Source: Halochromatium roseum (GTDB lineage: Bacteria > Pseudomonadota > Gammaproteobacteria > Chromatiales > Chromatiaceae). From it: 64,000 nucleotides of DNA. The translations under genes were made by a program, and so were the position numbers. Positions 27,031-31,321 of the stretch are shown one piece after another (position 1 is the first letter of the stretch; each line of letters begins with the position of its first letter). Location of the stretch: contig NZ_NHSH01000046.1 of NCBI RefSeq assembly GCF_016653315.1, forward strand, positions 124,001 to 188,000, in the 5' to 3' direction. The notes beneath the pieces were generated by a model. The model saw nothing but the letters and a program-made list of their open reading frames with translations, was not told where the DNA came from and ran no database searches.

Positions 27031-27375
27031 CGGCTCTGGTGAGGCCTGTCCAATGGCGGCGATTCGAGGTTGTGCAGTCGATTCGATGCCGATGGCTCGA
27101 AATGAGTCGGTGTCGCGGCAGGTCCAATCCCTATATCTTATCCCGTGTTCGCCTGATGGCGTTCGTGATCACAGCAAGACAGGCATTCGAGTGCTTGAGG
27201 TTGCGGTAGCATCCGCGGCAACGGCTTCCTTGTGAGCGTTACCTTCAATCTTCAAGCCATCGCTTATCTTCTGGGGTGGGGTGGCGATAGGCGATGAATA
27301 CTCGCCAATCGCTCGCATGATGAGCTTGACCCTCATTGACCCTAATTTTGAGCCTAATTGAGATTGGCTACGCTG
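27031..27375. other. 345-nt intergenic region, no gene seen
   Basis: This is the gap between birA and the FimV-ClcB gene. The only open frames are short and lack ribosome-binding sites. Two TTGACCCT copies at 27326 and 27336 near the end may contribute to a promoter, but no clear -10 at proper spacing was found. Confidence 0.4.
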
Positions 27376-29643
27376 ATGCGGCTTCGACACCAGGTCCGGT
27401 TATGGCTGATTGGCCTTGCGTTGCTGGTTGCGCTCGGTCCCACTTGGCTCGCCGCTGCTGAACAAACCTATGGGCCGGTGCGCGCCGGCGAGTCACTCTG
27501 GGAGATCGCTGGGCGCCTGAACACTGGGTTCGGGTTGACGAGGGATCAGATGATGTTGGCGTTGCTGAAGGCGAATCCGGACGCGTTCTCGCCTTCCTGC
27601 AATCTGAACGGGGTCTTGCGTGTTGGTGCGGTGCTGAGCGTGCCCGCGGTGAAACAGGCTGAGCAAGTGGATGCTGACTCCGCACGCGCACAGGTTCAGC
27701 AGCAAGCCGAGCAGTGGGCTGAGCATCGGCGGAGTGGACGACCGATCGCATGTCCGGTGGCGGGGGACGAGGGTGACTTAGCTGCCGATGGGTCAGGCGC
27801 AGACCTCCAGTCCCGCGAAACGATCAGCCTTGAGCGCGGTACGGAGGCTGCCGAAGCCGCCGTTTCGCCCACCGAGATCACGATTCCAAAGGCAGGGCCG
27901 ACGGCGAAGCTCGGCGCAGAGCGATCATTGGGACCAGCTGCAGCGCCGGCTGGTGCGCCAGAGCTGCCTTCCAACCAAGGCATCCCGAATGAGGCGCCAT
28001 CGATTCAGGCGCCATCGACTCAGGTTGCAGCGTCAACGGCTGCCAAGGAGACGTCTCCAACTGGGTCAACACTCGCTCCTACAACAACGCCGACACCAGT
28101 GCCAGCGCCAACACCAGCGCCGACGCCGGCACCTGTGGGCACTTCGGTGCATACTGCCGCGTTGAAGGACAGCGGCGAAGGATCAGTGGCCCCCGAAGGA
28201 AACCGAGCGCCGGTGTGGGCGATGACGGCACTCTTGCTTGCCCTGATCGCGGCTGCCATGATCCGTTGGGAGCGTCGCTGGGCGATCAGCGGGCGCCCAT
28301 TCTCGGCGACCACGGCGTTGGGAGCAGCGGCGAAGCTGCCAAAGCGCGCGGTGCTGTTGCTCTCCGGAGGTCAATCCGAGTTATACACGCTGCTGTTGTT
28401 GGCCACCCTGGCCGGGTTCTTCGGCGCCTTGGTGACGGTGCTGTTCCGCGAGGGGATTCGGCTCCTTGAATGGCTGGTCAGCGGACAAGATCAAGGCTTG
28501 GTCGCGGCCGCTGAGGCGCTTGCTCCCTGGCAGCGGCTGTTGTTTCCGGTGGCCGGTGGTCTGCTGGCGGGGCTGATCCTGCAGCAGATTGGTGGACGCC
28601 TGCGGGGGCGCTCAACGACCGACTACATGGAAGCGGTTGCGGTCGGCGATGGCTGGATCAGCGTGCGCCATAGCCTGGTGAAGGCGGGCTCGTCGCTGGT
28701 GACCGTGGCCTCTGGCGGTTCGATCGGTCGCGAGGGTGCGATGGTGCAGTTGGCGGCGATGGTGGCCTCGGCGATGGGCCGCCTCAGCCATTTTCCGCGT
28801 GATCGCCTGCGGCTCCTGGTCGCCGCTGGGGCCGCTGCCGGACTGGCATCGGCCTACAACGCACCAATCGCAGCAACCCTCTTTGTCGCTGAGATCGTGC
28901 TCGGCTCGATCGCCTTGGAGCACATCGGCCCGCTGATCATCGCGGCGGTGATCGCCAACACCACGGTCCACGAGATCCTCGGTTATGCGCCGGTCTATCA
29001 GATTCCGGCGTTCAGCCTGGTCAGTGACTGGGAGTTGGCGCTGTACCTGGTGCTTGGCATCCTAGCCGGGCATTTGGCGCCGGCGTTTTTGAGCCTTTTA
29101 GAGCGCTCGCATCAGCTCTTCGGTCGGCTGCCGATGCCGTTAGCGGGGCGCATGGCCCTTGGCGGGCTGGTGGTCGGTGCGATCTCGGTTTATGAGCCGC
29201 AGGTCTGGGGTAATGGCTACAGCGTCGTCAATGCGGTCTTACAGGACCCCTGGGCCTGGCAAGCCTTGCTGACCGTGCTGGTGTTGAAGATGATTGCTAC
29301 TGCTGCGACTCATGGCTCTGGCGCGGTGGGCGGCGCGTTTACGCCGACCATCTTTGTCGGCGCCATGCTTGGCGCGCTCTTCGGCACCTTGGTGCACGGT
29401 CTGCTGCCGGATGGCACCGCAACCCCGAGTGCCTATGCCGTGGTGGGCATGGGCGCGATGCTGGCAGGCACGACCCATGCCCCGCTGATGTCGATCCTGA
29501 TGGTGTTTGAACTCACGATGGACTACAACATCGTCTTGCCGTTGATGCTGTCCGTGATCACTGCACACTACACGGCCCGCCGTTACAGCGCCATCAAGCC
29601 GATGTACGCCGACTCTTTGTTGCCGCGAGAGCAATCCGCTTAG
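27376..29643 (+). CDS. FimV/LysM-like N-terminal domain fused to ClcB-type chloride transporter
   Basis: A 755-aa protein with an unusual architecture. Residues 1-28 form a signal peptide (LWLIGLALLVALGPTWLAAA). Residues 30-100 match the FimV N-terminal peptidoglycan-binding region (YGPVRAGESLWEIAGRL, DQMMLALLKANPDAF, NGVLRVGAVLSVP). About 100-280 is a low-complexity linker with a Pro/Thr run (TPTPVPAPTPAPTPAP). Residues 280-297 form one membrane helix, then from about 335 a complete ClC core. The core resembles E. coli ClcB: TDYMEAV, GSIGREGA with gating Glu453, LFVAEI with Ile at the internal-proton-glutamate position, GGAFTPTIFVG near 650. The extra helix would place the FimV part in the periplasm and the ClC N-terminus in the cytoplasm. 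ATG 27376 is chosen; TTG 27358 is possible. Confidence 0.85.
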   Translation: MRLRHQVRLWLIGLALLVALGPTWLAAAEQTYGPVRAGESLWEIAGRLNTGFGLTRDQMMLALLKANPDAFSPSCNLNGVLRVGAVLSVPAVKQAEQVDADSARAQVQQQAEQWAEHRRSGRPIACPVAGDEGDLAADGSGADLQSRETISLERGTEAAEAAVSPTEITIPKAGPTAKLGAERSLGPAAAPAGAPELPSNQGIPNEAPSIQAPSTQVAASTAAKETSPTGSTLAPTTTPTPVPAPTPAPTPAPVGTSVHTAALKDSGEGSVAPEGNRAPVWAMTALLLALIAAAMIRWERRWAISGRPFSATTALGAAAKLPKRAVLLLSGGQSELYTLLLLATLAGFFGALVTVLFREGIRLLEWLVSGQDQGLVAAAEALAPWQRLLFPVAGGLLAGLILQQIGGRLRGRSTTDYMEAVAVGDGWISVRHSLVKAGSSLVTVASGGSIGREGAMVQLAAMVASAMGRLSHFPRDRLRLLVAAGAAAGLASAYNAPIAATLFVAEIVLGSIALEHIGPLIIAAVIANTTVHEILGYAPVYQIPAFSLVSDWELALYLVLGILAGHLAPAFLSLLERSHQLFGRLPMPLAGRMALGGLVVGAISVYEPQVWGNGYSVVNAVLQDPWAWQALLTVLVLKMIATAATHGSGAVGGAFTPTIFVGAMLGALFGTLVHGLLPDGTATPSAYAVVGMGAMLAGTTHAPLMSILMVFELTMDYNIVLPLMLSVITAHYTARRYSAIKPMYADSLLPREQSA

Positions 29644-29764: not shown

Positions 29765-31321
29765 TTAACCGTTCGTCTCTAGCGACTGGTAGCCGCAGCG
29801 AGACACGGTGGTCCCTGGTGCCGGCTGGGATTCATCGCCGAGGGTGTCGCGCAGCCGCTCACAGATGGTCTTCATCACCTTGATGCGCGCGAATTGCTTG
29901 TCGTTGCCTTCAACCAGCGTCCAGGGGGCGTATTCGGTGCTGGTGCGGGCGATCATTTCGTTGACGGCGATCTTGTACTGCGGCCACTTTTCGCGGTTGC
30001 GCCAGTCTTCATCGGTGATCTTGTACTGCTTGTAAGGCGTCTTTTCGCGATCTTGGAAGCGTTGTAGCTGCTCTTCTTCGCTCACCTGAAGCCAGAATTT
30101 CAGCAGCACGGCACCATTTTCGACCAGTTGCTCTTCGAATTCGTTGATCTCGGCGTAGGCACGCCGCCATTCGTCCTCGCTGGCGAAGCCCTCGACGCGC
30201 TCGACGAGCACGCGGCCATACCAGGAACGATCGTAGATGATGATGTGGCCGGCGCGCGGCAGGTGGCGCCAGAACCGCCACAGGTAATGGTGTGCCTTCT
30301 CCTCATCAGTGGGAGCTGCAATCGGGATGGTGCGATAGAGCCGAGCATCGACCGCGCTGGTGATGCGGCGGATGGCGCCGCCTTTACCGCCGGCGTCCAC
30401 GCCCTCGAACACCAAGACGGTGGTGCGTTGTTGCTTGTAGGCCTTCCAGGCGAGCTCGTTGATCTCGCGTTGATACTTCTTCAGCTCCTCCTTGTACGCA
30501 TCGCGGGAGAGCCGCTGGCTGAGGTCGAGCTGGTCGAGCAGGGTGATCTGGGCGCTTGCCGATTCGGGCAGGTCGAGCGGCTCAGCGGTTGCCGGCGGCT
30601 CTGTTGGCAGCGGTTGTTGCAGTCGGGCCCGGATCGCCTGTAACAGCGTCTTGCCGACGGTGAGATCCCGATAGCGTTTGTCCTCGGCCTCGATCAGATA
30701 CCAGGGCGCGATGCCGCGATCGGTTTGCCGGATGACGCGCTCGGCGACATATTCGAACAGCTGATATTGCTCGGTGAACTTCGACTTCTTCGGCAGCATC
30801 TTCCAGCGGCTGCGATCGTCGCGCGAGAGCTCCTTGAGCCGGTTCTTCTGGTCTTCCTCGGAGAGGTGAAACCAGAATTTCACCACCAGCGCGCCGTCGT
30901 GGGTCAGCGAGCGCTCGAAGTCGACGATGCGTGCCAGTTCGGAGTCGAGCGCGGCATCATCGCATTCGCCCCGAAAGCGGTGCTCGATCGGGGCCAGATA
31001 CCAGCCGCCGAACAGGATGGCGATCTCGCCACGCGGCGGTAGGGTGCGCCAGAAGCGCCAGTATCGGGGCCGTTCTCGCTCTTCATCGCTGAAGTCCCAG
31101 AACGCGAAGGTTTGCACGCCGCGGGTGTCCAGCCACTCGTTGAGGCTGTTGACGACCTCGCCCTTACCAGCGGCCTCGACGCCGGCGATGATGACGATGA
31201 CCGGGATATGGCTATCGGTCAGCTCACGCTGCGCCTCGAGCAACTGGGTACGCAGTTCGTCACGTTGCACCTTGAAGTCTGATTTGCTGACCGATCGGCC
31301 GACCTTTGCTGCCTCGAACAT
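29765..31321 (-). CDS. pap: Polyphosphate:AMP phosphotransferase (tandem PPK2)
   Basis: Transfers phosphate from polyphosphate to AMP, making ADP. The 518-aa protein has two PPK2 domains in tandem, the architecture of class II PPK2: Walker A GVEAAGKGE near residue 50 and a second GVDAGGKGG near 305. Each half has the conserved Asp-Arg lid-type segments, with YDRSWYGRVLVERVEG in the second half and FGGWY in its place in the first. The length agrees with characterised two-domain enzymes of about 500 aa. It suggests polyphosphate use as an energy reserve. Confidence 0.92.
   Translation of the reverse strand: MFEAAKVGRSVSKSDFKVQRDELRTQLLEAQRELTDSHIPVIVIIAGVEAAGKGEVVNSLNEWLDTRGVQTFAFWDFSDEERERPRYWRFWRTLPPRGEIAILFGGWYLAPIEHRFRGECDDAALDSELARIVDFERSLTHDGALVVKFWFHLSEEDQKNRLKELSRDDRSRWKMLPKKSKFTEQYQLFEYVAERVIRQTDRGIAPWYLIEAEDKRYRDLTVGKTLLQAIRARLQQPLPTEPPATAEPLDLPESASAQITLLDQLDLSQRLSRDAYKEELKKYQREINELAWKAYKQQRTTVLVFEGVDAGGKGGAIRRITSAVDARLYRTIPIAAPTDEEKAHHYLWRFWRHLPRAGHIIIYDRSWYGRVLVERVEGFASEDEWRRAYAEINEFEEQLVENGAVLLKFWLQVSEEEQLQRFQDREKTPYKQYKITDEDWRNREKWPQYKIAVNEMIARTSTEYAPWTLVEGNDKQFARIKVMKTICERLRDTLGDESQPAPGTTVSRCGYQSLETNG

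Follow-up and report, generated by a model that had tools for sequence, protein, structure and literature searches.

A FimV/LysM-like module fused to a ClcB-type ClC transporter, a candidate cell wall tether in purple sulfur bacteria

The window, a stretch of 64,000 nucleotides of Halochromatium roseum DNA (contig NZ_NHSH01000046.1), carries on its forward strand a single open frame (27376-29643) of 755 codons plus a stop, with no internal stops. Translation from the ATG at 27376 gives a protein of 755 aa, and an alternative TTG start at 27358 would give 761 aa. We confirmed the order of the parts in this protein: a signal peptide, a FimV-type core and a Pro/Thr-rich linker, then one added membrane helix and the ClC core, which is complete and of ClcB type (Table 1). 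The FimV_core profile (TIGR03505, NCBIfam) scores 61.8 bits over residues 39-114 (cut-off 43.45), and the ClcB-like profile (PRK01862, NCBIfam) scores 540 bits over residues 334-745 (cut-off 482). Pfam Voltage_CLC matches residues 394-735 (E 3.4e-90) and covers positions 1-346 of its 346, so the core is complete. With the domain matches above their cut-offs and the frame free of stops, the original prediction of a FimV-like segment and an intact ClcB-like core in one uninterrupted frame stands. The Pro/Thr-rich linker that it described is also present, at a length of about 150 residues and not 180. Hydropathy gives the signal peptide, the one added helix and, after it, the helices of the ClC core; the signal peptidase site, judged by eye, is plausible. 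A scan for promoters and terminators around the gene found nothing.

Table 1. Features of the fusion gene in the window, and transporter genes that adjoin it in related genomes.
Feature	Position	Strand	Basis
FimV-module/ClcB fusion gene	27376..29643	+	open frame, domain matches, architecture recurring in 20 family genomes
Signal peptide, residues 1-28	27376..27459	+	hydrophobic stretch 9-27, then AAA-EQ
FimV/LysM-like module, residues 29-127 (FimV_core match 39-114)	27460..27756	+	TIGR03505, AF2 model, dN/dS
Codon of Cys75, invariant in fused modules	27598..27600	+	module alignments
Codon of Cys126, invariant in fused modules	27751..27753	+	module alignments
Pro/Thr/Ala-rich linker, residues 128-277	27757..28206	+	pLDDT about 25-30 in full-length AlphaFold model; fast-evolving
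Added transmembrane helix, residues 278-296	28207..28263	+	hydropathy; flanking charge; low-confidence model
ClcB-type ClC core, residues 335-745	28378..29610	+	Pfam Voltage_CLC, NCBIfam ClcB-like
Codon of Glu453, external gate glutamate (E148 of E. coli ClcA)	28732..28734	+	alignment with solved ClC
Kup and Na+/H+ exchanger genes beside fusion gene	L116:8116-10020, L117:7112-8983, L117:3326-4738, L122:1988-3607		

The best solved relative of the ClC core is 1kpl (E 8.7e-33). The gate residue is glutamate in all 81 aligned ClC sequences, and both E453 and the central tyrosine, Y744, are invariant in the fused set. At the position of the inner proton glutamate (E203 in E. coli ClcA) the protein has Ile507, and Ile or Val takes this place in all 67 of the next-closest ClcB relatives that the genome scan retained. 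None of these 67 proteins, which come from Sideroxydans, Sulfuriferula, Alcaligenaceae, Planctomycetota and others, has the module, and their match begins at the ClC core. Because the replacement is common to every unfused relative, a special ion-coupling change in the fused ClCs was ruled out; judging from the alignment, proton coupling is uncertain for the ClcB-like group as a whole and would be no peculiarity of the fusion. With the ClcB-like transporters (PRK01862) the fused protein shares the same complete core, the gate Glu, the central Tyr and the Ile at the inner Glu position. The unfused relatives start a few dozen residues ahead of the core, and many have a long C-terminal extension, whereas the fused clade carries the signal peptide, module, linker and helix ahead of the core and ends soon after it. 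We infer from the sequence that the core transports anions. E. coli ClcB, like ClcA, has been tied to survival in acid and is the less studied of the two (review, PMC10394335).

Modelling the module alone (AF2, 14 sequences), we obtained a pLDDT of 87.6 and the strand-helix-helix-strand order of LysM together with a long extra helix. The fold of this model is called LysM-like here, in agreement with what had been predicted for the N-terminal part. Pfam LysM has no match in the fusion protein at E ≤ 1, and a Foldseek search of the PDB with the module model gave no significant match; among the listed matches, those of low rmsd across about 60 columns are ectodomains of LysM receptors (about 3 Å, non-significant E values of 4-6). 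The full-length AlphaFold model, which places the added helix at residues 280-304 with low confidence, was too poor for use on the ClC part. Cys75 and Cys126 are invariant in the alignment of fusion-type modules, which covers modules on other transporters too, and the pair is absent from the canonical FimV modules read in comparison. We infer a disulfide between the two residues. Because the pair sets the fused modules apart from the studied FimV domains, their ligand could differ as well. A module tree had too few columns to resolve its branching firmly, and it contained two mis-sliced rows.

By the positive-inside rule, the positively charged flank of a membrane helix is cytoplasmic, and ClC cores usually start on the cytoplasmic side. 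Summed over 18 orthologues, the 25-residue flank ahead of the added helix contains 31 K/R and 48 D/E, and the 25-residue flank behind it contains 76 K/R and 27 D/E. Positive charge on the C-terminal flank predicts that this flank is cytoplasmic, with the FimV-type module expected in the periplasm and the ClC core starting inside. The charge pattern thus agrees with the earlier proposal that the extra helix puts the FimV part in the periplasm while the topology of the core is kept.

Of the 210 Chromatiaceae genomes searched, we read this architecture in the frames of 20, cultured type strains included; the order-wide sample consists of the same 210 genomes. An alignment of fusion-type modules run against them gave 24 matches of at least 110 bits; canonical FimV comes next, at no more than 98 bits. 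The named carriers are Lamprobacter modestohalophilus, Halochromatium sp., Thiohalocapsa sp., Thiorhodococcus drewsii, Thiocapsa roseopersicina, T. marina, T. imhoffii, Thiocapsa sp. KS1, Thiocystis sp., Thiodictyon sp. and Lamprocystis purpurea. L. modestohalophilus is a close relative of the window genome, and the fusion proteins of the two are 95% identical over their entire length. A run of N interrupts the fusion frame in Thiocapsa sp. KS1 (G138), and the protein of genome G170 has an internal deletion within the ClC part, which may be an assembly fault. That an assembly or sequencing error joined two genes is hardly conceivable: the broken gene of G138 could be counted in its favor, but independent assemblies, type strains and single-contig genomes among them, have one frame. 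An artefact or a chance fusion is ruled out by the 19 other genomes.

A tree of ClC cores groups the fused proteins in a single clade (SH-aLRT 100) with one change of state, and the fusion appears to have arisen once. Comparing close orthologues, we obtained a dN/dS of 0.04-0.12 in the module, of 0.03-0.05 in the ClC core and of 0.27-0.59 in the linker where measurable. Against the more distant orthologue of genome G029, the ratio is 0.25 for the module and 0.13 for the core, with the linker saturated. By these ratios, the module is under purifying selection and the linker much less so, a pattern that fits a folded head with a loose tether, maintained by selection. Purifying selection on the module rules out a degenerate N-terminal extension.

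A class-wide sample of 369 genomes held no module above 106 bits outside Chromatiaceae, the best matches being short FimV-like proteins of one other family. These proteins (L202, L203 and L206, from genomes G385, G491 and G241) have the same Cys pair, and the two that we read consist of the module with a linker and one helix and have no transporter attached. Genome G201 has an orphan fusion-type module (L108:5203-5823) in a frame of 206 aa with no ClC after it and a Kup potassium transporter nearby; it may be a remnant.

The module also occurs on other proteins of family relatives. In G029, module, linker and added helix are joined to a plasma-membrane-type H+ P-type ATPase of 1208 aa (L042:981-4607). 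Genomes G009 (L041:3142-6231) and G111 (L112:994-4086) have it on an MFS carrier protein of about 1030 aa, where TIGR03505 scores below its cut-off, and in G009 it is also found on an ABC_sub_bind substrate-binding protein of 665 aa (L043:2072-4069). Found on an ATPase, on MFS carriers and on an ABC binding protein, the FimV-type module looks like a portable envelope anchor.

Besides FimV-ClcB, the window genome has two other ClCs. In one of them, which is of the ClcA type (G000:C40, L051:7052-9406), the core is followed by an added helix, a Pro/Thr linker and, at the C-terminus, a SPOR domain that scores 30.2 bits (cut-off 21). Domains of this kind recognise peptidoglycan glycans that are denuded (PMC6895207). 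Performing a family search and reading the frames, we counted the SPOR-ClcA form in 18 genomes; Pfam confirmed the SPOR domain in nine of the proteins, and the others were judged by match coverage, frame length or reading. The relatives from other genera include L032, L044-L047, L211, L220, L225 and L226. In G003 (L048), the ClcA-type frame stops ahead of the SPOR domain. Both fusions share a ClC core, an added helix, a Pro/Thr linker and a predicted periplasmic wall-binding domain, whereas SPOR-ClcA differs in its ClcA-type core and in its domain, which is SPOR and not FimV/LysM and lies at the C-terminus. SPOR-ClcA, the mirror image of FimV-ClcB, points to the same use made of a different wall-binding domain.

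In P. putida and P. aeruginosa, the LysM-like domain of FimV has been shown by experiment to bind peptidoglycan (PMC12918733, PMC5285504), and on this ground we think it probable that the FimV/LysM-like arm tethers the ClcB-type transporter to the wall. The signal peptide and the added helix would place the module in the periplasm, the ClC core keeping its cytoplasmic start. There the module would bind the glycan strands of peptidoglycan, and the linker, disordered and about 150 residues long, would bridge the gap between membrane and wall. The transporter would thereby be kept in the wall-facing part of the inner membrane, and perhaps out of the photosynthetic membranes. The fusion is not essential, because 57 of the 77 phototrophic genomes of the family are without FimV-ClcB.

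The same architecture could serve other ends. As a sensor of turgor or wall strain, the protein would gate or tune its ion flux to the state of the envelope through pull on the tether. Kup genes adjoin the locus in Thiohalocapsa and Thiorhodococcus drewsii, and a CPA2-type Na+/H+ exchanger gene does so in T. drewsii and Thiodictyon, as would suit such a role. The neighbourhood is not conserved, however, and consists of BirA and PPK2 in the window, and a linker that is disordered and evolves fast in length and sequence would transmit force poorly; we consider this reading unlikely. The PPK2 gene of the window (29765-31321, minus strand) encodes a double-domain polyphosphate kinase and is convergent to the fusion gene, with the same neighbour in G002 and G007. 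Targeting to the pole or to pilus sites, as in FimV/HubP, had been put forward as well and did not fare well: without an Ig-like domain, a cytoplasmic FimV/TPR part or pilus genes among the immediate neighbours examined, it appears very improbable. Its arguments are the FimV_core homology and the requirement for the FimV LysM in placing pilus parts at the pole in P. aeruginosa. FimV/HubP proteins and the fusion also have in common a periplasmic LysM-like core (predicted here), a low-complexity linker and a single membrane helix after it. But canonical FimV of the family has about 150 residues ahead of the module, whereas in the fused protein the module comes straight after the signal peptide. 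The Ig-like N-terminal domain is present in Pseudomonas FimV and absent in Vibrio/Shewanella HubP. The fusion also differs from FimV/HubP in having no acidic cytoplasmic region or TPR/FimV C-terminus, in its extra Cys pair and in the ClC transporter after the helix, the protein ending soon after the core. In P. putida, the polar position of FimV needs the Ig-like domain in addition to LysM, and the protein binds the wall of several species (among PMC12918733, PMC5285504). The genome moreover has its own canonical FimV (L005).

A more specific version of the tether explanation is that the arm acts as a sorting anchor, which restricts ClcB to the peripheral cytoplasmic membrane. Excluded in this way from the intracytoplasmic photosynthetic membranes, the transporter would offer no anion pathway there that could shunt the light-driven membrane potential. 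We rate this version as possible but doubtful. Reaction-centre genes are present in all 20 FimV-ClcB carriers, against 77 of the 210 family genomes, and in 17 of the 18 SPOR-ClcA carriers; the two fusions co-occur within phototrophs, with 13 genomes having both, and G029 additionally has the module on its proton-pumping ATPase. However, the single origin of the fusion means that the association with phototrophy is not independent evidence, and the MFS fusions lie in genomes without reaction-centre genes (G009; G111 is not among the matches). The wider proposal, that Chromatiaceae phototrophs use wall-binding arms (FimV/LysM on ClcB, SPOR on ClcA and FimV on the ATPase) to sort ion transporters to the wall-facing membrane and away from the photosynthetic membranes, is a tentative one that we would rather doubt. 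Tethering of the ClcB-type transporter to peptidoglycan is the reading that we prefer.

Studies of ClC proteins usually treat them as membrane dimers that have no contact with the wall. We found no paper on FimV or SPOR joined with a chloride channel in the open literature searched, and the earlier statement that no system with the FimV-ClC architecture was described is upheld within that range. As far as we found, the parts are known, while the architecture and its repetition are apparently undescribed. In one family, two types of ClC bear predicted wall-binding domains, which differ between the two types and sit at opposite ends, and in each case a single extra helix makes the topology fit. 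Such repeated attachment of wall domains suggests that the position of an ion transporter relative to the wall matters, and that some ion transporters of purple sulfur bacteria are held against the cell wall. With these fusions it can be tested directly whether ion flux is tuned by position in the envelope or by its tension, and by what means phototrophs whose inner membranes are folded exclude transporters from their photosynthetic membranes.
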